From positions 1 through 64,000 of the forward strand of contig CAISJI010000188.1 of NCBI GenBank assembly GCA_903885565.1: a DNA stretch of 64,000 nucleotides. Direction: 5' to 3'. Below the pieces are notes generated by a model. It saw nothing but the letters and a program-made list of their open reading frames with translations, was not told where the DNA came from and searched no databases. Position 1 is the first letter of the stretch; each line of letters begins with the position of its first letter. Below, one piece after another: positions 19,062 to 34,437 of the stretch. This DNA is from an uncultured Planctomycetaceae bacterium. Its GTDB lineage: Bacteria > Planctomycetota > Planctomycetia > Pirellulales > UBA1268. The position numbers and the translations under genes were made by a program.

Positions 19062-22000
19062 TTACTTTTGACGTTCAAATGCCAGCGGCTTGGCATCCTT
19101 TGGCGCGCCTGAGAGCAGAAAGTCGAAGGCATTTGGTCCTTTGGAAACCACTTTCCCCACCATGGTGCCATTTTTTTCTGTCTGCAACGCCATCTCATCG
19201 GTGGAAGTGCCAATCTCACCGCTGAGTTCAACCGCTGGCTTACCGGCTGGAGTGGCCTTCCAGGTGAACCGGGAGTCCTCCGTCACCGTGAGGGTGATGG
19301 TGTCCTTGCCGGCCGTTGCCTGCCACACTCCGACCAGATCTGTCTCTGGTGCCGTTGGAGCTTGTGCCTGCTCTGCTGCCGGGGCTGCCTGCGCCTCGGC
19401 GGCCGGTTCCTCAGGGGCTTTGAGTTCCTCGGCCGGCGTGAGCGCATCCAGCAGCCGCTTGGCTACGAGATCGCTCGGCTGCTGGGCCACCACCACCTTC
19501 AGTGCTTCGCTGGCCAGATCTGCATAACCACCCACCAGATAGTGATAGGCCAGCACAAAGTGGCCGGCGGCGCTCGTCGGATTCGTCTTACAGAATTCCT
19601 CGAGTTTCCGCAGTTGGCCGGTGTAGGTGTCGACCGAATCGTAGAGGCTGCTGAGGGTGGTCCAGTCCATGCCGGGCGCCACCGCCAAGACGGAGTTGAG
19701 GGCCGCGGCTGCCTCCGGATACCGGCCCAAGGCAAAGAGCGTCAGAGCTCGCACCTCATGGATCACCGAATCCTTGGGCGAGAGCTTGACTGCTCTGTCG
19801 CAGCCACCCAGCGCTGAGGCATAGTCGGCCGCCTTGAAGCGGGCCAACGCCTCGTCGAACACACGGTTGGCTTCGCTGGCAGCGGTGGTCTGCGTGGCGG
19901 CAGCATTGCCTCCCTGCCCACCAGCGCCCCCCACGCCGCCGCCGCCTCCCTGATTGTCGGCAGTGCTCGTGAGATCGCCGTCGTTGGTGACGTAATTATT
20001 CACCACGATCGGCTGCGAGTAATCGTAGGGGGAGGTAGCAGTCACCGTGGCAGGAATGGCGGAATAGTAGGGATTCACATACCCACCTCCATATCCCAGC
20101 GACGAATAGCCCAGGCCCCACCCGCTGGCCAGCGATGCCAATCCCCACGTGGTGGCTCCAAAAGCATAGGGATTTCCATAGCCGCCTCCCCAGTTGCCAC
20201 TCCAGCAGCCGTTGTACCAATTGTTGTAGTAGGGATTCACAAAGCTGCTGTTCCAAGCATCGACTCCATAGCCATAGCCGCCGTACCCGCCGTACCCGCC
20301 GTACCCGCCGTAGCCGCCATTGCCACCGTAATACCCACCGCCATATCCGCCATACCCACCACCACCCCAGCCACCAAGGCCCCAACCACCCAGGCCGCCG
20401 ACTGCGATCCCCACGTTGGTATTGCCGCCATAGCCACCGCCATACCCACCGTTGATATTGACGCTGTTACCGATGTTGTTGCCGATGTTGGTGTTGTTGC
20501 CGATGCCGTTGCCAATGCCGGGCCTATTGTTCCAACCCGGTCTGTTATTCCAATCTGGCCTGTTGTTCCAGTCGGGTCTGTTATTCCAGCCTGGGCGATC
20601 GCCACCACCACCGATGCCGGGGCGGCCGGGCCGATCGCCACCTCCACCAATCCCAGGCCTACCTGGCCGATCACCCCCTCCGAATCCGCCGGGCCCATTG
20701 CCGCCGCCGATGCCGGGGCGATTCCCACCCCCGATCCCAGGCCGATTGCCCGGCCCACCACCACCACCGATCCCGCCGGGCCCATTGCCGCCGCCGATGC
20801 CGGGGCGATTCCCGCCCCCGATACCCGGCCGATTGCCCGGCCCACCACCACCGCCGAGGCCACCCGGCAATGTTGTTGGCCGATTGCCCAAGCCGAACCC
20901 GCCGCCCGGGCCAGGCCCACCGCCATCGGGACGATTGCCACCCCCACCCGGTCCGCCCATGCCAGGCCCGCCAATCCCGGGGCGATTGGGGCCATTCGGC
21001 GAGGGGAACGAGGGCTTGGTCATCCCACCCAAGCTCGGCCGATTGGGGCCGCCGCCGCCGCCAATACTGCCGGGGAGCGTGGTGGGACGATTGCCACCGC
21101 CGAGATTGCCAGGCCGATTGCCGCCGACGCCAGCGCCGGGGCCACCGCCGCCAATGGTGCCAGGCAACGTGGTCGGACGATTGCCCAGCCCCGCACCCGC
21201 ACCTGGGCCTGGCCCCACGCCTGGTCCGCCACCGCCACCGCCACCGCCACCGCCACCGCCGCCGCCGCCGAGATTCCCCGGCAGGGTTGTGGGACGATTG
21301 CCGAGCCCCGCTCCACCGCCACCCAAGCCACCCGGGCCACCACCACCAGCCTGTCCGATCTGTCCCGGCCGAAACGACGGAGATGGACGATTCGCGAATC
21401 CGCCCCCCGGCTGACTCGCCATGCCCCCACCCATGCCCATTCCTCCCGAGCCGATCGGCCGATTCATGCCGCCAATGCTGCCCGGCAAACCGGGACGCAC
21501 GCCACCGGCACCGGCACCGGGAAAATTCGGACGCCCCCCCGCCCCCAAGCCGGCACCAGCATTCCCGGGGACTCCGGCCGGACGATTGAGGCCACCCAGG
21601 CCGCCCGGCTGGAGCCCACCCAGCCCCGCGGGCCGCTGCATCCCCGCAGCGCCCGGCCGGTTGAGGCCGGCAGCGCCTGGCATCGAGGGGCGCATGCCGG
21701 CGCTTGGAAACGAGGGACGGGCCATGTTGGCTGGACCACCCGCCATGTTGGGCCGTTGAAAATTCGGTTGCTGCATGGCTGGCCGCTGGCCCATTTGGCC
21801 CATTTGAGGCATGTTGGGACGCTGCATCTGCGGCATGTTGGGACGCTGTCCCATCTGTGGACTCGGTCGCTGCATCTGCGGCATGTTCGGCCGCTGCATC
21901 TGTGGACTCGGCCGTTGCATCTGCGGCATCTGTGGCCGCTGTCCCATTTGCGGACTCGGCCGCTGCATCTGAGGACTCGGCCGCTGCCCCATCTGAGGGC

Positions 22001-22151
22001 TTGGCCGCTGCATTTGTGGCATGGCGGGACGTGCGCCACCGCCCCCCACGCGTCCCATCGAGGGCCTTCCGCCCCCGGGAGCGCCAAGAGCCACCGAGAC
22101 TCCAGCTACCGTCATCAGCACTACGCAGACACACGCCACAATTGCGCGCAT
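19062..22151 (-). CDS. Large exported low-complexity protein with TPR-like region
   Basis: 1029 residues. Signal peptide at about 1-24, then Met/Gln/Pro/Arg repeats (MQRPSPQMGQRP), long Gly-rich stretches punctuated by NRPTTLPG and NRPGIGGG motifs, a polyglycine run, WNNRPDWNNRP repeats and a YGGYGGYGG tract. Near residue 760 a folded part begins: TPR-like helices (FDEALARFKAADYASALGGCDRA and ALGRYPEAAAALNSVLA), then an Ala/Glu/Pro linker and a C-terminal beta-rich module of about 85 residues starting LVGVWQATAGKDTITL. The product is probably secreted or wall-attached. ATG 22151 gives the signal peptide. The function is unknown. Confidence 0.8.
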   Translation of the reverse strand: MRAIVACVCVVLMTVAGVSVALGAPGGGRPSMGRVGGGGARPAMPQMQRPSPQMGQRPSPQMQRPSPQMGQRPQMPQMQRPSPQMQRPNMPQMQRPSPQMGQRPNMPQMQRPNMPQMGQMGQRPAMQQPNFQRPNMAGGPANMARPSFPSAGMRPSMPGAAGLNRPGAAGMQRPAGLGGLQPGGLGGLNRPAGVPGNAGAGLGAGGRPNFPGAGAGGVRPGLPGSIGGMNRPIGSGGMGMGGGMASQPGGGFANRPSPSFRPGQIGQAGGGGPGGLGGGGAGLGNRPTTLPGNLGGGGGGGGGGGGGGGPGVGPGPGAGAGLGNRPTTLPGTIGGGGPGAGVGGNRPGNLGGGNRPTTLPGSIGGGGGPNRPSLGGMTKPSFPSPNGPNRPGIGGPGMGGPGGGGNRPDGGGPGPGGGFGLGNRPTTLPGGLGGGGGPGNRPGIGGGNRPGIGGGNGPGGIGGGGGPGNRPGIGGGNRPGIGGGNGPGGFGGGDRPGRPGIGGGGDRPGRPGIGGGGDRPGWNNRPDWNNRPDWNNRPGWNNRPGIGNGIGNNTNIGNNIGNSVNINGGYGGGYGGNTNVGIAVGGLGGWGLGGWGGGGYGGYGGGYYGGNGGYGGYGGYGGYGGYGYGVDAWNSSFVNPYYNNWYNGCWSGNWGGGYGNPYAFGATTWGLASLASGWGLGYSSLGYGGGYVNPYYSAIPATVTATSPYDYSQPIVVNNYVTNDGDLTSTADNQGGGGGVGGAGGQGGNAAATQTTAASEANRVFDEALARFKAADYASALGGCDRAVKLSPKDSVIHEVRALTLFALGRYPEAAAALNSVLAVAPGMDWTTLSSLYDSVDTYTGQLRKLEEFCKTNPTSAAGHFVLAYHYLVGGYADLASEALKVVVAQQPSDLVAKRLLDALTPAEELKAPEEPAAEAQAAPAAEQAQAPTAPETDLVGVWQATAGKDTITLTVTEDSRFTWKATPAGKPAVELSGEIGTSTDEMALQTEKNGTMVGKVVSKGPNAFDFLLSGAPKDAKPLAFERQK
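20688..20861 (-). repeat. Two tandem 87-bp units inside the Gly-rich gene
   Basis: The segment beginning GCCGGGCCCATTG at 20688 recurs at 20775 and the two units are almost identical, giving an exact 87-bp (29-codon) period. It is an in-frame duplication within the NRPGIGGG region of the low-complexity protein. Confidence 0.7.
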
Positions 22152-22248
22152 TCGTTCATACCTTTTAAAGAAGAAGCAGTGTGCAAACCATTGACAAACT
22201 GCCGGCAAATCAGGAGAGCAGAACACCACAAACAGGCTTCGCTGCAGA

Positions 22249-23562
22249 CTACTTGACCACCGGCTTGGCCGGCTGTGGAACCGCGGGAACCGGCACCCCG
22301 ACCGGCCGTGGAGCAGCCGCCGCGGGGGCCGCGGCCGGACTCGTCGAGGCGCTGGGCTTGGCGGCCGGAGCGGGCGACGGGGCTGCCGTGGCGGGAAGAC
22401 TCGAGGACGGGGCTGTCGCCGGCACCGCTGGCTTGGAGAGGGCTGTGCCCGGATTGGCTGCTGCCGGAGCGGCCGGTTTGTTCTCGTTGGCGGCAGGACT
22501 CGCAGCAGCCTCGGCCGGCTTCACACCCGTGTCGTCCGGCCGCGGCGGCCGGCGGGCGATCTTCAATTCGAATTCCGGTTCATCGGCACCGGCCACAATC
22601 CGATCACTCGAACGCACCGTGAAGTGATCCTCGTCGGTGGGAGCGAGCGTCACCGTGGCAGAACCGGTCGTGCCATCGGGCATGGCGGCCTCCGACTTGA
22701 CCACCCAGCCCGCTTCGGTCGGCGTCCATTCCCCTTCGCTGAAGCCGCCATCGGAATCGAACGTCCAACTGCGGAGCGTCCCCTCAACGGCATCCCAGCC
22801 GATGCGCTGTGTGCTCTGCGATTCGGGGAGACCGCCCACCGAAAGGGTGTAGTCGCCGAGCAGGAAATTACCGTCCTCGCTCCAGCGGTAGCTGATGGCC
22901 GTGCGTCCCTCGGGGCTTTCGTCAACCCAATCCCCCACCAGCCACGAGAGCGACAGCAGCATCTCCTGCGGCGTGGGGAGCGGATCATCGGCAAATTCGC
23001 GGTAGGAGGCGATCGGCCAGTGATCCCCAACCTTATCGCGCACGGCGATGTAGCGGAGCTGGGCAGCGGCAGCGCCATCCTCAGCCGTGATGCGCCGCAC
23101 CCCTTCCTCGATCGCGAGGCTGTCACCGAGCGACCGCACATCGGTCACCTCAAGCTCCACGACAGCCTGGGGAAACTGCGTGAAAAATGCCTTGAAGAGG
23201 CCGGCGATCTCCGCCTTGCCCACATAGGCGTTGCCGTTTTCGTCGATCAGTTCGCCCCCCTCCATGAAGTGTCCCGCCAGGCCCTCGGCATCGGCGCTGT
23301 TGAAGGCCTTGACGGTGGCCTCCATCTCCTGGGCAACCTTGGCGACCAGTTCCGGCGAGGCTGCCGGTGCCTCTACTTCCACGACGGCAATAACCTCGGT
23401 GGCCTGCGCTCCATCGGCCGGCTGGGCCGCCGCACTCCCACCAGCCCCCATCACAGCCAGCAGCGCCAGTGCGAGCATCGCCACAATCTCTTGTGCGCAG
23501 ATGCGTCCTCTGCCCAACGAATCCACCGTGTCGAATCTGTTCACTACGTCCAGCAACTTCAT
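22249..23562 (-). CDS. Exported SnoaL/SgcJ-type (NTF2-fold) protein with a lipocalin-like second domain
   Basis: 437 residues. Signal-like segment (about residues 26-48, LALALLAVMGAGGSAAA), an NTF2-fold domain of the SgcJ/EcaC kind (MEATVKAFNSADAEGLAGHFMEGG), then a beta-rich domain starting LSWLVGDWVDESPEG and continuing through IGWDAVEGTLRSWTFDSDGGFSEG, and an Ala/Pro-rich disordered tail of about 90 residues. ATG 23562 has GAGGGG just upstream. The protein at 31764-33023 has the same two-domain order. The NTF2 fold binds small molecules, but no substrate is evident. Confidence 0.8.
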   Translation of the reverse strand: MKLLDVVNRFDTVDSLGRGRICAQEIVAMLALALLAVMGAGGSAAAQPADGAQATEVIAVVEVEAPAASPELVAKVAQEMEATVKAFNSADAEGLAGHFMEGGELIDENGNAYVGKAEIAGLFKAFFTQFPQAVVELEVTDVRSLGDSLAIEEGVRRITAEDGAAAAQLRYIAVRDKVGDHWPIASYREFADDPLPTPQEMLLSLSWLVGDWVDESPEGRTAISYRWSEDGNFLLGDYTLSVGGLPESQSTQRIGWDAVEGTLRSWTFDSDGGFSEGEWTPTEAGWVVKSEAAMPDGTTGSATVTLAPTDEDHFTVRSSDRIVAGADEPEFELKIARRPPRPDDTGVKPAEAAASPAANENKPAAPAAANPGTALSKPAVPATAPSSSLPATAAPSPAPAAKPSASTSPAAAPAAAAPRPVGVPVPAVPQPAKPVVK

Positions 23563-23855
23563 GCGTATCCCCTCATGTGTGCGTTCCACGCCCGGATGAC
23601 TGCCCCTGCGCAACGGGCAGACCACCACCCCAGCAACGGCCGTGCAGTGGCCAGCACGATAGCGAACCATTTTCTCTCCGGAACCGCAAGTAACGGGTTG
23701 GTTTTTCTTGGCGAAGTGGGTTTCGGGCTTGGAAAAATGGCCCGTCTGCTTGCACCCAAGCCTGAGGACCAGCTAGTTTTTCCCGCAGGTTCGTCGCCAC
23801 TGGCGACGGCGTTCGCCGCCTCTGTTCCGCTGCCATCCCATCCAGGAGACCACCC

Positions 23856-26972: not shown

Positions 26973-27914
26973 CTATCCGCTGCGGGAGGCAAAGAGCGCC
27001 CCCGACACCTTCGACAACAGCCAGAGCGTGCCGAGCGGCAGGACAATCGTGGAAATCGTGAAGTAGATCGCCAGATTGACGATCGACTCCCCCACATCGG
27101 CCAACGTGGCGTAGAGCCGCTGGGCCCGCTCGGTGACGTAGTCGACCGGGTTGTAGCGATCGACCCATGACTTGGCCTTGGCGGCATCCTCCGCCTCAAC
27201 CTCCTCGATCTTCGCAGTCGTCGTGGTGACCGTCGCCGCCGCTTGCTGGTAGCTGCTCTCCAGAAACTGCGTCGACACGAGGGAATCGATCCAGGCGGAG
27301 GTCGGAATCGCCAGTCGGGCAAACAGTGCGATGCCAACCAGCCGCCTTCCCCATCCCAGCAGCCCTTCCCGCGAGACCCCCCGGGTCACCATCGCTCCCA
27401 CCAGCGCCGCAGCCGCCGGCAGAAACAACCACCAGCCCAAGGACCGGCCGATCTGCATCCCCAGCCGCTGCACGCCCAGCGCCGTCGTGCTGGTGAGCAA
27501 CAGGGCCCCGTACTGCTCCACCAGATCGTTGACAGGATCGAGTGCCTGACCAATGCCCAGACTCCCCCCGGGCCCGAAGCTGAAGCTCACCTCGGAACTC
27601 TGCGCCAGAGAGATCGCGCTGTCGAGTCCACGCGTGGCGGCCAGCGCCGCGAGGGTGCGCGCAAACGTCGCCTCCAGATAGGCCTCGCCACGGGAGTCGG
27701 CCGCCGGGGCAAACAGCAGCATCGACACCACCGCCACACCCCCGAGCACGATCAATCGGGCCAGCGGTTCCCGGAACGACTCAGGCACCATGGTGAGCCA
27801 GCGTCCCTGCCAGAGCGCTGCCAGCAGATCATCGTCGGCAACGCTTCTGGGCGGCGGGGCCGCCGGAGGAACCGCGGCAGGCTGCACTCCAGACGGGGGC
27901 GTGGGATCGGCCAT
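26973..27914 (-). CDS. Multi-pass membrane protein of unknown function
   Basis: 313 residues. A Pro/Ala-rich cytoplasmic N-terminus is followed by hydrophobic helices at about 54-72, 130-150, 160-182, 192-210 and near the C-terminus (AIYFTISTIVLPLGTLWLL). A charged, possibly coiled segment (KIEEVEAEDAAKAKSWVDRYNP) lies before the last helix. No family was recognised. ATG 27914 lies 5 bp after the stop of the HAD-SGNH gene, so the two very likely form an operon and may act together at the membrane. Confidence 0.72.
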   Translation of the reverse strand: MADPTPPSGVQPAAVPPAAPPPRSVADDDLLAALWQGRWLTMVPESFREPLARLIVLGGVAVVSMLLFAPAADSRGEAYLEATFARTLAALAATRGLDSAISLAQSSEVSFSFGPGGSLGIGQALDPVNDLVEQYGALLLTSTTALGVQRLGMQIGRSLGWWLFLPAAAALVGAMVTRGVSREGLLGWGRRLVGIALFARLAIPTSAWIDSLVSTQFLESSYQQAAATVTTTTAKIEEVEAEDAAKAKSWVDRYNPVDYVTERAQRLYATLADVGESIVNLAIYFTISTIVLPLGTLWLLSKVSGALFASRSG

Positions 27915-27919
27915 GGCTC

Positions 27920-29839
27920 TCAATGCTCCAGAAGTTTTTCGAGCACCGGCTGGAGAATCACTGCTCGCCGGAAATTACCGATCAGGCTGGGATGCAGCGT
28001 GTCGTCGAGAAAGCATTCTGCCGCGGGCAGTCCGTCCGCGCCCAGAAAAGCGGCGCTGGTATCGAGGTGGCTCACGCCCGGCGCGCTCCCTGCGGCGATC
28101 CAGGCAGCAATCTGCCGGTTGGCTTCAGCCTGTGTCTCCACCTGCTTCCAACGCTTGATGCTCGGAGCGATCTCCAGAAACAGGATCTTTACCTCCGGCA
28201 ACTCCTCCCGCACTCCGGCCACCAGACGCTGGAATGCGGCGGCCACATCGGCCGCTGCGGTTCCTGCATCAATGTCGTTGCCACCAGCCGAAACCACGAC
28301 CACCGCCGGGTGGAGGTGGGCCAGAAGCCGGGGGGCAAACTCTGCCAATTCGCTTAAATAGCAGCCTCCAACGCCACGGTTGACGATATTGAGCCCAGGA
28401 AAATCCTCCGCCAGCGTCGACCAGAGCCTGATGTTGGAAGACCCCAGCAGACAGACGCCGCCAGGCGCCGGTGGCTGGCGGAGCGTTTCCTGTTCATAGG
28501 AGGCAATCTCCCGTTCCCAGCGATCTTTGCGATCAGCCGGGGGGGCTGGGGTCGCGGCAGGCGGTGCGACCAGCGCGGAGCGATCGGCCGGGGCTGGCGT
28601 TTCCGCTGCGGGTGACTGATCGCCCACCGCGGGGGCAGCGCGGCGTTCCAGCGGCCGGGCAAAGATGCGATTCCAGTCGCTGGCCATCCGCACCACGTTC
28701 CATCCATGAGCCTGCGCTGCCTGCATCGAGGCATGCGTCGGTTCGTCGTAGGCCATTTCTCGCTCTGCATCATCGTGGAGCACGAGCAGCTGCAGGTTGG
28801 GCCGCAAGCTGCCCGCCGACCAGCGCAGCATCGCGATGTCGCCCGCGGTGCCGACGTTGCCGGCAGCGAAGATCGGACGCCTGCCGATCCGCTCCGAGAT
28901 GCCGATCGCTTTCTGATGCTCGTCGTTGAGCACCTCTAACCGGGGCTTGGCGACGATCCGCAGGCCCCGGGTGCCATGAGCAGTCGGGCTCGACGGTTGC
29001 TCGACCTCCTCCAGTTCCAAGGCAGGGCGGGAGGCAATGACGTTCTCCGGGGGGATCGCGTACCAGGCCGCGGCGGCCGGACGCATGAAGTGGACTCCGC
29101 TGCCGGTGCAGATCCAGAGCGTGAAGCCACGGCTGCGCAGCAGCGCCAAGAGTTCATGCATCGGCTGGTAGGTGACTTCCGCGTAGGGCACATCGAAAAC
29201 CGGATGCCGCGCCCGGGCCAGAAAGCCCTCCACGCTTTTTTCCAAATCCTCTTCTGTCACCCCCGCGAGCGCCTCGAAATTCAGGTCCATGAAATACCGC
29301 TTGCCCAGCCTGCCGACGGCAGTGATATCGCCAGTGAGGAGCGTGGCGTAGGGCTCGGTGTGGGCCAGATCGGGCTGCTGCTCGGCCAACTGCCGGATGT
29401 GCTCCAGCAGAAACATGCCGTGGACGATCGGCTTTTCACACACCAGCGTGCCGTCGTGGTCGAACACCGCGATGCGTTCTTCCGGCGGCACATAGGTGGC
29501 CGTTCCCTCGGCCGTCACCGCCGCGAGGAAATTGACGATCGCCTGTTTTGTTTTTCCCTCGTTCCAACTCGGCAGGGGATCGACCGGCAGAGACTCCCCG
29601 GGATTCGCTCCTGGATTCGGCCGGGCGGCAGGGACTGCCAGACCGGGCGGCAGGCCGTCTGTCGGCTGGGTGGTCGGGGGCTGGGTGGTCGGCGGACGCA
29701 CACCCACCGGAGCCATCTCACCACACCACACCGCGACTCCCACCACTCCTGAGAGCAGCAGCAACGGCAGGAGCGGATTGAACGCGGAGCCGAGCGGCCT
29801 CTCTCTGCCGGTCCATGCGGGCCCATCGTCTCTGGTCAT
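27920..29839 (-). CDS. HAD-family hydrolase fused to an SGNH/GDSL hydrolase
   Basis: 639 residues. An N-terminal membrane anchor or signal helix (about 15-40) and a Pro/Thr linker precede a HAD domain at about 95-375: the nucleophile motif FDHDGTLV, a Thr-containing motif II in LWICTGSG, and a later acidic loop. After an Ala/Pro linker comes an SGNH domain at about 430-639 with block I GSSNIRLW, block III SAGGNDID and block V DDTLHPS. HAD members hydrolyse phosphate esters; SGNH members hydrolyse acyl esters. ATG 29839 has AAGGAG 7 nt upstream. It is first in an operon with the membrane protein at 26973-27914. Confidence 0.83.
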   Translation of the reverse strand: MTRDDGPAWTGRERPLGSAFNPLLPLLLLSGVVGVAVWCGEMAPVGVRPPTTQPPTTQPTDGLPPGLAVPAARPNPGANPGESLPVDPLPSWNEGKTKQAIVNFLAAVTAEGTATYVPPEERIAVFDHDGTLVCEKPIVHGMFLLEHIRQLAEQQPDLAHTEPYATLLTGDITAVGRLGKRYFMDLNFEALAGVTEEDLEKSVEGFLARARHPVFDVPYAEVTYQPMHELLALLRSRGFTLWICTGSGVHFMRPAAAAWYAIPPENVIASRPALELEEVEQPSSPTAHGTRGLRIVAKPRLEVLNDEHQKAIGISERIGRRPIFAAGNVGTAGDIAMLRWSAGSLRPNLQLLVLHDDAEREMAYDEPTHASMQAAQAHGWNVVRMASDWNRIFARPLERRAAPAVGDQSPAAETPAPADRSALVAPPAATPAPPADRKDRWEREIASYEQETLRQPPAPGGVCLLGSSNIRLWSTLAEDFPGLNIVNRGVGGCYLSELAEFAPRLLAHLHPAVVVVSAGGNDIDAGTAAADVAAAFQRLVAGVREELPEVKILFLEIAPSIKRWKQVETQAEANRQIAAWIAAGSAPGVSHLDTSAAFLGADGLPAAECFLDDTLHPSLIGNFRRAVILQPVLEKLLEH

Positions 29840-30086: not shown

Positions 30087-31640
30087 ATGCGCCGTTTCCA
30101 ACTCTTTCTCGCCTCCCTCCTGATCTGCCTGCCGACGCTGGCCCGGGCCGACGTGTCGCTCAACAACATGTTTGGCGATCATATGGTGCTGCAGCAGGGG
30201 ATCCGCAACCGGGTCTGGGGCAAGGCCGAGCCGGGCGAGGCAGTCACCGTGACGCTCGGCGCGCAGACCCACTCCACGCAGGCCGGAGCGGACGGGCAGT
30301 GGCAGGTGTTCCTCGATCCTGTGCTGGCCTACGGCGGCCCGCATACCCTGACCGTCAAGGGGAAGAACACCGTGGCGTTCAACGATGTGCTCATCGGCGA
30401 GGTGTGGATCTGCGCCGGGCAGTCGAACATGCAGTGGAGCGTTGACCAGTGCCGGGATGCCGATCTGGAGCGGGCGACTGCCAAATTCCCCACGATCCGG
30501 CTGATCAACGTGCCGATCAAGGGCACGCAGGAACCACAAGGGAATTTCGACGGCAAGTGGCAGGTCTGCTCGCCAGAGACCGTCGGACCGTTTTCCGCTA
30601 CGGGCTATTACTTCGGCCGCCAACTGCAGCAGACGCTCGGTGTGCCGGTCGGCCTGATCGACAATGCCTGGGGAGGCAGCGCTGCGGAGGCCTGGGTGAA
30701 GCGCGAGAAACTGGCGGCTGACGAACGCTTCAAGCCGCTCGAGGCCCGCTGGGCCCAGCTGGAGGCGGCCTTCCCCGCCGCCAAGGCCGATTATGAAAAG
30801 AAGATGGAAGAGTGGAAGGCTGCCGCCGAGAAGGCAAAGGCGGAAGGGAAGCCCGCGCCGAATCAGCCGGGCAACCCGGAGGGCAACATGGCCGGCAACG
30901 CCCGGCCTGGCAACATCCATGCCGGCATGCTCGCCCCTTCGATCGGCTACGGAATCCGTGGCGCGATCTGGTATCAGGGGGAGTCCAACGCCAGCCGAGC
31001 GCTGCAATACCGCTCCCTGTTTCCCTTCATGATCAAAAGCTGGCGCGACGAATGGGGCGTTGGCGAATTCCCCTTCTACTGGGTGCAATTGGCCGACTTC
31101 ACTGATGAGGCCAAGGAGCCGGGAGACAGCGACTGGGCAGAACTGCGCGAGGCGCAGACGATGACTATGAAAGCCCTGCCGAACACCGGCGAAGCGGTGA
31201 TCATCGATCTCGGCGAGGGGAAGGACATCCATCCGCTGAACAAGCAGGATGTGTCGAAGCGGCTGGCCCGCTGGGCTCTGGCCGAAACCTACAAGGTTCA
31301 GGGCATCCCCTGCCATAGCCCGCTCTACCGCTCGATGGAAAAAGGAGGGAACAAAATCGTTCTCTCATTCGATCATGTCACGGGGGGCTGGCGGCCGTTT
31401 GATGTCAACGAACCGCTCGGCTTCACGATCGCCGGCGAGGACCGGAAGTTTGTGCGGGCCAAGGCTCAGGTCCTCCCCGATGGCAGGATCGAGGTTTCCA
31501 GCGAGGCGGTTGCCGCGCCAGTGGCGGTGCGATATGGCTGGGCCAACAACCCCGTCTGCAACATGTACTCAGGCGCGGGCCTGCCCCTGACCCCGTTCCG
31601 TACCGACACCTTCCCCGGCATCACCGACGGCAACCACTGA
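30087..31640 (+). CDS. Sialate O-acetylesterase-type (SASA) carbohydrate esterase
   Basis: 517 residues, exported. The signal peptide ends at about LPTLARA. The start of the mature protein, NNMFGDHMVLQQ, is typical of SASA-domain esterases, which remove acetyl groups from sugars. The nucleophile lies in ICAGQSNMQWS and the second SGNH-like block in WYQGESNA. A charged Lys/Glu/Ala helix insert (about 225-270) interrupts the core. The C-terminus forms a beta-domain ending in RYGWANNPVCNMYSGAGLP. ATG 30087 is preceded by GGAG. It probably acts on acetylated polysaccharide in the periplasm or outside the cell. Confidence 0.9.
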   Translation: MRRFQLFLASLLICLPTLARADVSLNNMFGDHMVLQQGIRNRVWGKAEPGEAVTVTLGAQTHSTQAGADGQWQVFLDPVLAYGGPHTLTVKGKNTVAFNDVLIGEVWICAGQSNMQWSVDQCRDADLERATAKFPTIRLINVPIKGTQEPQGNFDGKWQVCSPETVGPFSATGYYFGRQLQQTLGVPVGLIDNAWGGSAAEAWVKREKLAADERFKPLEARWAQLEAAFPAAKADYEKKMEEWKAAAEKAKAEGKPAPNQPGNPEGNMAGNARPGNIHAGMLAPSIGYGIRGAIWYQGESNASRALQYRSLFPFMIKSWRDEWGVGEFPFYWVQLADFTDEAKEPGDSDWAELREAQTMTMKALPNTGEAVIIDLGEGKDIHPLNKQDVSKRLARWALAETYKVQGIPCHSPLYRSMEKGGNKIVLSFDHVTGGWRPFDVNEPLGFTIAGEDRKFVRAKAQVLPDGRIEVSSEAVAAPVAVRYGWANNPVCNMYSGAGLPLTPFRTDTFPGITDGNH

Positions 31641-31763: not shown

Positions 31764-33023
31764 ATGCGCGACCCACGGCCCCGCTGCCGGCTCCCGTTCA
31801 CCCTGCATTTCCTGCAGCGCTGCCTGCTGGCGGCGGCCTGCCTCACCACCGGCCTGACCACTGCCTGCACGCCCCCGGCAGCGTCCAGCAGACAGACACC
31901 ACCACGCCCTTCGTCTGCCTTCTCGTCGCGAGCGATTCCGGTGATCATCCGGCCGGCGCGGCGGTTTCATACCGACCACCTCGCCTCCACCGAAAGCGGA
32001 CCGTCGCCGGTTTCCAACGCCGTAACCACCCCCCCGCGTCTGTTGGCCGACAGTGCCGCCCGCCTCTCGGGATTGCCTGCAGCCGCAGGTCCGCCAGCGG
32101 AGCCCTCCCCGACGGCGGTGGCTGAGGCTGAGATAAAGGCGATGGTGGGGGATTACCTGCGGGCCTTCAACCGCCACGATTCCCTCCGCGCCGCGGCCCA
32201 CTGGAGCGCTTCGGCAGACAACACCAACCTCGCTTCGGGTGAAATCACGCGGGGCCGGGACGCCGTGGAAGAGGTGCTCGCTGCGCTGTTTGAGGAGGAG
32301 GCAGGGGCCACGATCGACATTGATGTCGTGTCGATTCGAATGGTGCGCAGCGACGTGGCTGTGGTCGATGCCGTCTCGGCGCTCTCTTTTTCGGACACGG
32401 GCAATTCCCCCACGCGTCCCTCCCGCAGCCGCCTGCTGGCGGTGGTTGTCAAACAGGATGGCCGCTGGCTACTGGAGAGCGTCCGCGAGGCAGGTCTGGC
32501 TGCCGCGCCGCCGGCCGCAGGGCCCCTCGATGCACTCGCCTGGCTGGTGGGTTCATGGGAAGACGCAGACGACGGCGTGACCGCAGCGACGCACTGCTGC
32601 TGGAGTGCCGATCGATCATTCCTCATCCGCACCCATCACGTCACACGCGAAACGAGCGCCACTGAGCCGCCGGTCGAACCCGGCATTCCGCAACTCCTCT
32701 CCCCTCATCCCTCAGGCCCACGTGAGATCACCGAAGTAATCGGCTGGGATCCTCAGGCTGGCGAGATCCGCAGTTGGCTGTTCGGCTCAGGAGGCCGGCT
32801 GGCCGAGGGGGAGTGGAAGCGGAAGGGTGAGCAGTGGCAGATCCATCTGCACGGCGGTGGGGCGACCGCGCCAGCCACCTGCACCTGCACGCTGGAGCCG
32901 ATTGGAACCGAACAGATCCGCCTCCACTGCGACCGAGACGACCTGCTGGAGGTACTGCCTCCGGCCTCTGTGTATCGCCGCGTCAGCCGACTCGGCTTGC
33001 TGCCGGCACCGCTCAGCGAGTGA
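31764..33023 (+). CDS. Exported SnoaL/SgcJ-type protein, paralogue of the 22249-23562 product
   Basis: 419 residues. The N-terminus is a signal peptide with a possible, imperfect lipobox (LTTAC, C35), then a disordered Pro/Ser/Thr region, an NTF2-fold domain (IKAMVGDYLRAFNRHDSLRAAAHW) and a beta-rich domain beginning LAWLVGSWEDADDG and running through VIGWDPQAGEIRSWLFGSGG. The same order and motifs occur in the gene at 22249-23562. ATG 31764 has GGAGG 7 nt upstream. Its stop overlaps the convergent gene at 33013 by 11 bp. Confidence 0.8.
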   Translation: MRDPRPRCRLPFTLHFLQRCLLAAACLTTGLTTACTPPAASSRQTPPRPSSAFSSRAIPVIIRPARRFHTDHLASTESGPSPVSNAVTTPPRLLADSAARLSGLPAAAGPPAEPSPTAVAEAEIKAMVGDYLRAFNRHDSLRAAAHWSASADNTNLASGEITRGRDAVEEVLAALFEEEAGATIDIDVVSIRMVRSDVAVVDAVSALSFSDTGNSPTRPSRSRLLAVVVKQDGRWLLESVREAGLAAAPPAAGPLDALAWLVGSWEDADDGVTAATHCCWSADRSFLIRTHHVTRETSATEPPVEPGIPQLLSPHPSGPREITEVIGWDPQAGEIRSWLFGSGGRLAEGEWKRKGEQWQIHLHGGGATAPATCTCTLEPIGTEQIRLHCDRDDLLEVLPPASVYRRVSRLGLLPAPLSE

Positions 33024-34113
33024 GCGGCGCTTTGGGGGCAGTCGCTACCGGCGTGCGTTTGGAGACATAGACTTTCGGGTCGTCGATCACCCAGGGGGTG
33101 CTCCATGTCTTGCCGTCATCGCGGGTGCAGACATTGTAAAAATAGGTCTTGAGAAGTTCGGTGCGGTAACCGTAGGGGAATTGCGAAGTGATGTGGTCAT
33201 CCATCGTGAGGTCGTCCACACCAGGACTGGCAAAATAGTGCACCATGCCGTCGGGCGAGCAGGAGAGCCCGAGCGTCCACCAGCCCAACTCCTTCATCTG
33301 CGGCCCCCGGATTTCGGCGCCGTTACGCCCGCCGCGGATCTTGAGATAGGCGGCGTCCTCCTTGAATCTTCCGTCGTGGCTGCTCTCGAAGCAGATGAAC
33401 ATGCCGGGCCAGTATTCTTCGAGCCCAAAGCGGCCTTTTTCCGGGTGGTCGTCGCCGGTGATGATCGCATGGGTGAAGCAACCAGCGCGGAACCCAAAGG
33501 AGGGACCGGAGCGATTCTCCCACTGCTCAAAGGGAGGCAGATAGACGCGGGTCACCACACTCGGGCTGTCGCCGACAGAAATCCCCCGCCCATACGAGCG
33601 CTGCATGTTGAAGATGAGATCGTCCTGCTCCATCTTGTAGCTCAGCCGCCCGGGAATCCCTGTGTGCAGGGAAGAGATGAGCAGGCCGTACTCACTCCCT
33701 TCCAAACCGGGCGCCGGCAGCGCCAGCCGCTTCACAACGTCGGGCGTGCCCCGCTTCATCCCCTCGAACCATTTGCCGTTGATGCTCTTTCCCACCGGGG
33801 CACGGACGCGCTTGTCCTGCTCTTCGGAGCTCTTGGGATGGCGGTAGTTCCAGTTCCACTTCTCGTCCTCGAAGTCATCCCCGGCATTGAGCACCACGGT
33901 GCCAGTGCCTGGCACCAGCACCGGCTTCTTGGGGGCCGGGGGTTGGGGCTCGGCGGCCGTGGCCGTTGTCGCGGCCGTGGAACGGGGCGACTGGGCCTTG
34001 CGGGCGGTGCGCTGCTGCTGCCGTGGGGCCGACTCGGCTGCCGGGGCCAGAGCAGTCAGGCAGCCAAGAACCACCAGCGCTAAAGCGACTTTCGAGACCT
34101 GCGAATGGGCCAT
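33013..34113 (-). CDS. Exported protein of unknown function
   Basis: 366 residues. Signal peptide (about 1-28), a Gln/Arg/Ala/Thr-rich linker, then a folded region rich in aromatic residues: DDFEDEKWNWNYRHPKSSEE, KWFEGMKRGTPDVVKRL, LISSLHTGIPGRLS, FRAGCFTHAIITGD, WPGMFICFES and WWTLGLSCSPDGMVHYFA. The pattern suggests a beta-sandwich resembling carbohydrate-binding or concanavalin-like domains, but this is an inference from composition only. ATG 34113 has GGGGAGA upstream. It is divergent from the PDZ-protein gene. Confidence 0.68.
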   Translation of the reverse strand: MAHSQVSKVALALVVLGCLTALAPAAESAPRQQQRTARKAQSPRSTAATTATAAEPQPPAPKKPVLVPGTGTVVLNAGDDFEDEKWNWNYRHPKSSEEQDKRVRAPVGKSINGKWFEGMKRGTPDVVKRLALPAPGLEGSEYGLLISSLHTGIPGRLSYKMEQDDLIFNMQRSYGRGISVGDSPSVVTRVYLPPFEQWENRSGPSFGFRAGCFTHAIITGDDHPEKGRFGLEEYWPGMFICFESSHDGRFKEDAAYLKIRGGRNGAEIRGPQMKELGWWTLGLSCSPDGMVHYFASPGVDDLTMDDHITSQFPYGYRTELLKTYFYNVCTRDDGKTWSTPWVIDDPKVYVSKRTPVATAPKAPLTR

Positions 34114-34437
34114 TGATGTCTCCCCCCGAAATATGGAATACCGGCCCAACGCCCGTCGCGCTTCTGCCAAAATAACTATCGACGCCCAACCCCCGGGCAA
34201 TCGAACCCCGGCCCCGCGCCGCACTGCCAATCGCTCTGTTCTCCGAGGCTGCCCGATCGCCCCCTCCGGGCTCTCCTGCCGGCCTTGTGCAGACCCACCA
34301 GACTCCGGCCCATTCGGTCGGCAAAAGAGGTCTGGCGACACCGGGAAGAAATCGTCACAAACCCCTTCGGCGCGAGCTCGCTCCCGCAGCTCCACGGCCA
34401 CCCCCGCGGGAACTCACAAACCTTCCGTCCCAAATCC
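34114..34437. other. Divergent intergenic region
   Basis: About 320 bp between the start of the unknown exported protein (minus) and the PDZ protein (plus). Open frames run through it in both directions, but their content is Arg/Pro/Ser-rich and not protein-like. It must hold promoters for both genes; none could be fixed. Confidence 0.45.

Follow-up and report, generated by a model that had tools for sequence, protein, structure and literature searches.

A HAD domain and an SGNH domain are joined in a single polypeptide, P0001, behind one N-terminal hydrophobic helix in an uncultured Planctomycetaceae bacterium. The gene lies in the 64,000-nucleotide stretch of DNA that we analyzed (here called the window), and it unites known enzyme families in a new, lineage-restricted architecture. 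We think it somewhat likelier true than false that P0001 is a periplasm-facing bifunctional hydrolase, in which a phosphatase-like module and a short-acyl esterase module share one anchor without obligatory coupling. The evidence comes from the conservation of catalytic residues, from fold matches, and from the separate gain and loss of the two halves at one gene position within a single planctomycete family.

RESULTS

One gene encodes HAD and SGNH domains behind a hydrophobic helix

The open reading frame of P0001 runs from an ATG at 29839 to a stop at 27920-27922, and its product has, in order, the hydrophobic helix, a Pro-rich stretch, the HAD domain, a Pro/Ala-rich linker, and the SGNH domain (Table 1). 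The motifs FDHDGTL (residues 126-132), GSSNIRLW (466-473), GGND (519-522), and DTLHPS (613-618) mark the two cores. By hydropathy, the N-terminal helix is found in both the fused and the SGNH-only forms of the gene described below, and no lipobox was seen by eye at the N terminus of P0001. In Pfam, the HAD part matched PF12710 (E 9.6e-10, residues 124-270) and the SGNH part matched PF13472, Lipase_GDSL_2 (E 6.9e-18, residues 473-621), the latter with a score of 66.2 bits versus a gathering threshold of 32.9. Among PDB sequences, the HAD part matched 4ovy (E 7e-62) and the SGNH part 3p94 (E 4.9e-8), and a profile of 18 relatives added matches to PAF-acetylhydrolase (E 8e-12) and to phosphorylcholine phosphatase. 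The motifs, Pfam matches, and N-terminal helix thus bear out the proposal of the initial annotation that both cores reside in one anchored polypeptide. The membrane protein gene that it placed 5 bp after the fusion, P0002, is also there, with its start at 27914 and a gap at 27915-27919.

Table 1. Coordinates of P0001, its domains and catalytic codons, and neighboring genes in the window
Feature	Position	Strand	Remarks
HAD-SGNH fusion P0001	27920..29839	-	639 aa; range includes stop
N-terminal hydrophobic helix, predicted signal anchor, residues ~24-42	29714..29770	-	Hydropathy and modeled helix 24-42, low pLDDT
HAD domain, residues 87-395	28655..29581	-	4ovy E 7e-62; VIA Z 32.8
HAD nucleophile codon D127	29459..29461	-	27/27 at-site HAD rows
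HAD motif III Lys K310	28910..28912	-	26/26 covered at-site rows
HAD motif IV Asp D334, in GNVGTAGD	28838..28840	-	26/26 covered at-site rows
Pro/Ala-rich interdomain linker	28532..28654	-	pLDDT <50 at 405-432
SGNH domain, residues 437-639	27923..28531	-	PF13472; PAF-AH Ib and sialate O-acetylesterase folds
SGNH nucleophile codon S468	28436..28438	-	33/33 rows
SGNH catalytic His H616 (D613-x-x-H616)	27992..27994	-	33/33 rows
P0002, 313-aa multi-pass membrane protein, unnamed family	26973..27914	-	Starts 5 bp past fusion stop
YTV-repeat protein, conserved-block member beyond P0002	24401..26551	-	PF07639, 11 stretches
SASA-type carbohydrate O-acetylesterase, divergent neighbor	30087..31640	+	PF03629; PDB sialate O-acetylesterase matches; stays beside gene across loci

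Both cores match known hydrolase folds

An AlphaFold2 model of P0001, made from 18 sequences, had a mean pLDDT of 78.5 and a pTM of 0.54; pLDDT was high over most of both cores, and the anchor and linkers were modeled poorly. The low pTM is compatible with two domains joined by a flexible linker and is no proof of their relative placement. When the model was compared to known structures with VIA-align, the best-aligned HAD structure was 4ovy (Z 32.8 over 291 residues, rmsd 5.0), the phosphorylcholine phosphatase 4as2 aligned with a Z of 17.9 (252 residues, rmsd 5.2), and PAF-AH Ib and sialate O-acetylesterases aligned with Z values of 23.6 to 25.4 over 189 to 198 residues.

The protein 4OVY, a HAD hydrolase of Planctopirus (Planctomyces) limnophila, aligns with P0001 over the whole HAD domain at 38-39% identity, and this enzyme and its stand-alone relatives share motif I, the Lys, and the last Asp with P0001. 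They differ from it in having no SGNH domain and in their motif IV, which reads GNSDGD in 14 of the 16 stand-alone rows. The PchP phosphatase of Pseudomonas aeruginosa (4as2), which is periplasmic (PMC3170909), shares the HAD fold with P0001 and gives a weak profile match (E 1.7e-4, profile positions 196-321); the first metal-binding Asp of its motif IV, D262 (PMC3170909), is an Asn in P0001. The same source places E42, E43, and Y82-84 in the alkylammonium site of PchP, and at the ungapped offsets of E42 and E43 P0001 has I138 and V139, a correspondence by offset rather than by gapped alignment. The SGNH domain resembles PAF-acetylhydrolase Ib and the Bacteroides/Phocaeicola sialate O-acetylesterases (1wab, 6njc, and 7pzg) in its fold and catalytic triad but is only about 19-25% identical to them, and in P0001 it follows an anchor and a HAD domain in the same chain.

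Catalytic positions of both domains are conserved

We use the customary HAD motif numbers and SGNH block names. The HAD domains found at the site of the fusion gene made up 27 alignment rows (23 fusions and 4 HAD-only proteins) and were compared to 16 rows of stand-alone HADs; the row of the split gene of genome G025 (L039) spans motifs I and II only, which leaves 26 rows for K310 and motif IV. In motif I (DxDxT), D127 is present in every at-site row and D129 in 26 of the 27, the exception being a Glu in L098. The motif II Ser/Thr is conserved in 27/27 rows, and every row that covers K310 and the final Asp of motif IV keeps them (Table 1). Motif IV itself reads GNVGTxGD or nearly so at the site, in a loop two residues longer than that of the 16 stand-alone HADs, or only one residue longer in the HAD-only proteins L040 and L041. 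The first metal-ligand position of this motif is Asn in at-site and stand-alone HADs, 4ovy included. Because of this Asn, the longer loop in the fused clade, and the Glu for D129 in L098, phosphatase activity of the HAD domain is not certain.

In the SGNH alignment (33 rows, 23 fused and 10 stand-alone), S468 of block I, G489 of block II, N521 of block III, and D613 and H616 of the block V DxxH are each present in 33/33 rows. Loss of catalytic residues in most homologues, named in the initial annotation as evidence that would count against it, was thus not what we found: the HAD and SGNH catalytic positions are largely kept. Their conservation rules out a general catalytic decay of the homologues, with a caveat for motif IV.

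In the genomes sampled, the fusion is restricted to one family and coexists with partial forms

From homology matches, tblastn maps, and the match list of an order-wide scan, we classified 60 sampled genomes of the family to which the window belongs, counting the window's own. For architecture we relied on the tblastn maps, as the greedy gene caller made errors (for example, at L011, L078, and L102). The fusion is carried by 20/60 genomes: it is a single match in 18, lies in one open frame but two pieces in G030, and is split over two frames in G025, within the HAD part (L093, G025:C27, 6038-6931 and 6916-7974), by either a frameshift or an assembly error. Three genomes (G029, G035, and G042) have a HAD-only gene at the site, as does L010 in G535. 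Ten genomes from genera g2, g7, and g11 (G001, G006, G010, G016, G019, G026, G032, G043, G047, and G050) have an SGNH-only gene there, 46-56% identical; in g2, the SASA neighbor of this gene was not seen. A partial SGNH match in G024 was classed apart, and the other 26 genomes have weaker relatives or none. Left uncounted were the SGNH matches of G005, G015, and G031 (37-42%), the first two of which group with outgroup rows in the tree.

Fifteen other fusions are 52-57% identical to P0001 (alignment A2). In an order sample of 246 genomes, every both-domain match among those listed belongs to the window's family, and in a phylum sample of 294 genomes, at a limit of 1e-60, both domains were spanned in the window's genome only. 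A scan of GTDB contigs gave 17 loci, of which 11 are planctomycete-type (10 with both domains and L010 with the HAD alone) and 6 are HAD-only loci in other phyla. No plasmid record covered 80% of the fusion, no phage record matched at E 1e-5, and no description of a HAD-SGNH fusion was found in the titles and abstract beginnings of open-license PMC papers. Since single-frame fusions recur among the 60 family genomes, the gene is not a chance open frame. Their recurrence in many separate assemblies also rules out an assembly artifact or read-through, with G025 as the exception.

The gene sits in a conserved block

The fusion belongs to a block with the order F5, SnoaL-like gene, SASA esterase (divergent), HAD-SGNH gene, P0002, YTV-repeat protein, MscL (PF01741), and second SnoaL-like gene, which is preserved across much of the family. 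At one position of this block there is a fusion, an SGNH-only gene, a HAD-only gene, or no such gene; in this last state, P0002 lies directly beside the SASA gene (L088, G008:C76; L089, G021:C139). In some of the ten fusion genomes in which P0002 adjoins the gene, a small ORF on the opposite strand (F13, named CBS-domain-like by eye) lies between the fusion and P0002. Taking the best matches to the window's genes over the 33 loci compared, we found median identities of 76% for SASA (27 loci), 74% for F5 (19 loci), 70% for P0002 (20 loci), 67% for the YTV gene (27 loci), and 55% for the HAD-SGNH gene (31 loci). The block is conserved as a whole, and SASA, F5, and P0002 are more alike than the HAD-SGNH gene, so the closeness of these genes partly reflects synteny. 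Proximity alone does not point to a shared pathway, and the adjacency of the SASA gene may be mere synteny.

The block is flanked by two related SnoaL/DUF4440-type genes at 22249-23670 (-) and 31764-33023 (+). A 462-aa ORF at 33013-34401 (-) had a median identity of 74% in 19 loci and no Pfam match, and a 1,055-aa Gly/Pro/Met-rich low-complexity ORF at 19062-22229 (-) matched TPR weakly around residues 786-853.

P0002 belongs to an undescribed membrane protein family

P0002 is mostly helical in its model, with about four hydrophobic stretches by eye. It had no match in Pfam, its sole line in NCBIfam was unrelated and far below the cutoff, and neither database gave a match to an AT3 or MBOAT acyltransferase family. 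The best PDB sequence match had an E value of only 0.58. Its model, of moderate quality (pLDDT 72.9), had no PDB fold match at E 0.001, which does not in itself make the fold new. We place P0002 in an undescribed family of multi-pass membrane proteins.

Within the family sample, P0002 was found in 27/60 genomes. Of the 20 fusion genomes, 10 have P0002 as the following gene-sized match on the contig of the fusion (gap of up to about 715 bp), 4 have it on a different contig (G013, G030, G052, and G055; the G030 fusion ends near a contig edge), and in 6 it was not found (G007, G017, G025, G033, G039, and G046; the G033 fusion is near a contig edge). It adjoins the gene in one of the three HAD-only genomes and lies downstream in 10/10 SGNH-only genomes, with about 1.5 kb between in G016 and G047; two genomes, G008 and G021, have P0002 without any hydrolase at the site. 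No P0002 separates the fusion from the YTV gene at L032, L090, L091, L102, L103, and L104, and at the last five of these it is truly missing, because the YTV gene follows about 400 bp after the fusion.

In the order scan, P0002 matched in 27/246 genomes, 26 of them of the window's family (f1) and the other G472, of the same order, whose match is a weak, partial relative (G472:C125, L145, E 9e-18). Scans of 294 genomes of the phylum with two profiles found it in the window's genome only; the rows listed contain no other f1 genome, and these scans inform on other families. Distant relatives lie on plasmids (L155, L156, and L157) of the campylobacterium Sulfurospirillum (27% identity over 86% of the query) and the betaproteobacterium Polaromonas (43.5% over 19%). 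Upstream of the Polaromonas relative is P0003, which has no SGNH match, and upstream of the Sulfurospirillum relative is a small hypothetical protein. With P0002 adjoining the gene in only half of the fusion genomes and having distant relatives elsewhere, we found no support for the initial annotation's view of it as a specific partner, and any partnership with this SGNH domain is at most local.

Stand-alone HAD relatives often lie near sulfatases

The stand-alone relatives of the HAD domain begin with export signals, as judged by eye. At all six of the non-planctomycete loci (L012 to L017), a sulfatase-cluster gene (F12 or F14) lies within about 6 kb; those of L012, L013, L014, and L017 were checked as PF00884, and those of L015 and L016 were assigned by clustering. 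L013 also has a formylglycine-generating enzyme nearby, and on the two annotated Rhizobium plasmids examined, out of 265 matching records, an arylsulfatase gene is followed by the HAD gene. This habit is weak in the window's family, since an F14 sulfatase occurs at only 2/10 stand-alone HAD loci (L108 and L110). No sulfatase was found near P0001 among the 16 window ORFs scanned against Pfam between 15005 and 40914. The HAD family thus apparently comprises exported enzymes that are often in ester-scavenging neighborhoods, so scavenging or surface trimming would suit P0001 better than a fixed step of envelope synthesis.

The fused HAD lineage most likely arose once

All 27 at-site HADs fall in one clade (support 100/100; stem length, 1.29 changes per column), which is good support for a single origin of the fused HAD lineage. 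The 16 stand-alone HADs are separate from this clade, and some share a genome with a fusion (G003 and G017). Most likely, the fused HAD lineage had a single origin, and each half was retained or lost at the locus independently of the other.

The SGNH tree with outgroup rows places the fused clade inside SGNH-only lineages (94/90, unstarred) and favors, without strong support, SGNH-only as the older state. The SASA tree places the window beside g7 and g11 among HAD-bearing genera (96/93, midpoint root) and suggests that the HAD part was lost in g7 and g11. An SGNH tree that holds the window, g7, and g11 together was not rejected (p 0.09). Trees that keep the HAD-bearing rows together were rejected both for SASA (p 0.008) and for RpoB (p 0.0007); for RpoB, 30 rows were extracted and 4 of these dropped as short. 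Because both tests also set these rows against genomes without the gene, what they show is losses (or transfer) and not direction; the RpoB backbone is otherwise poorly resolved and does not settle HAD gain versus loss. Among the four HAD-only rows, end branches are long in L010, L040, and L041 (0.41 to 0.51), which may reflect looser constraint after SGNH loss, but not in L100 (0.098).

DISCUSSION

From these data we infer export, two activities, and a role for P0001 as follows. The N-terminal helix would tether the protein to the outer face of the cytoplasmic membrane, with both domains in the periplasm. The HAD domain would form an aspartyl-phosphate on D127, with D129, S/T245, K310, D334, and Mg2+ taking part, and would release phosphate from small or exposed phosphomonoesters. 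The S468/D613/H616 triad would hydrolyze a short acyl ester, probably O-acetyl because of the structural neighbors of the SGNH domain and the adjacent SASA esterase. On their flexible Pro/Ala-rich linkers, the modules may be two activities that share a tether and not necessarily a substrate, and they would probably serve in trimming surface glycans or scavenging nutrients, not as two obligatory steps of one pathway.

The initial annotation had instead proposed sequential removal of phosphate and acyl groups from an envelope molecule. A version in which both domains act in turn on a single envelope molecule that carries phosphate and acyl groups, and in which P0002 is their dedicated partner in the membrane, would agree with the retention of the fusion in 20 of 23 genomes of the family sample with a HAD at the site and with the position of P0002, which adjoins 10/20 fusions and lies downstream in all 10 SGNH-only genomes examined. 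We nevertheless consider it unlikely, as SGNH-only, HAD-only, and no-gene states occur at the same locus, P0002 is missing from the six fusion loci listed above, and stand-alone HADs lie near sulfatases. The two halves and their membrane neighbor come and go separately, so they need not act on one molecule. The circumstance that the initial annotation itself named as contrary, that in relatives the parts are separate genes in unrelated contexts, is found in part, in the HAD-only and SGNH-only genes and in the stand-alone HADs near sulfatases. That the fused HAD is instead a catalytically weakened binding or structural module, with the esterase alone active, strikes us as quite unlikely: the Asn at the first metal position of motif IV, the altered loop of the fused clade, the Glu in L098, and the long stem of this clade fit such a change, but the nucleophile, the Lys, and the last Asp are conserved in every covering row, and the four HAD-only rows keep the HAD motifs without an SGNH domain.

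SGNH domains also act beside membrane acyltransferases, as in AT3-SGNH proteins and the PatA/PatB pair, and the SGNH domain of P0001 could accordingly be an acyltransferase that works with P0002. The SGNH-like transferase CASD1 is a precedent (PMC8319020), and P0002 follows the SGNH-only gene in 10/10 genomes examined. Against this reading, which we regard as very unlikely, P0002 has no acyltransferase family match and its moderate model no PDB fold match at E 0.001, in 6 of the 20 fusion genomes it was not detected and in 4 it is on another contig, and its Polaromonas relative adjoins P0003, which has no SGNH match. A more specific scheme, in which a phosphorylcholine-phosphatase-like HAD and a PAF-acetylhydrolase-like SGNH strip phosphate and a short acyl group from surface molecules that bear phosphocholine or are acetylated, in a single planctomycete family, with P0002 (of its undescribed family) positioning the substrate, is more improbable still.

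Returning to the uncoupled bifunctional hydrolase that we prefer, a partial analogy is offered by the NanS esterase system. Its two esterase modules act jointly on acetylated sialic acid, and in the window SGNH and SASA esterases lie side by side. The window differs in having two divergent genes and an additional HAD domain. The window's genome has two matches to NeuB-type synthase genes, which we do not count toward a sialic acid substrate because 9 of 14 control genomes also match.

If both modules are active, P0001 would be a natural phosphatase-esterase chimera whose evolution can be traced at one gene position, and a useful case for the joining and parting of secreted enzyme domains. Its medical or biotechnological weight is small before a substrate is known. 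Its neighbor P0002 points to an uncharacterized family of multi-pass membrane proteins, in which the region around GQ.LDP.NDL.EQ is strongly conserved.
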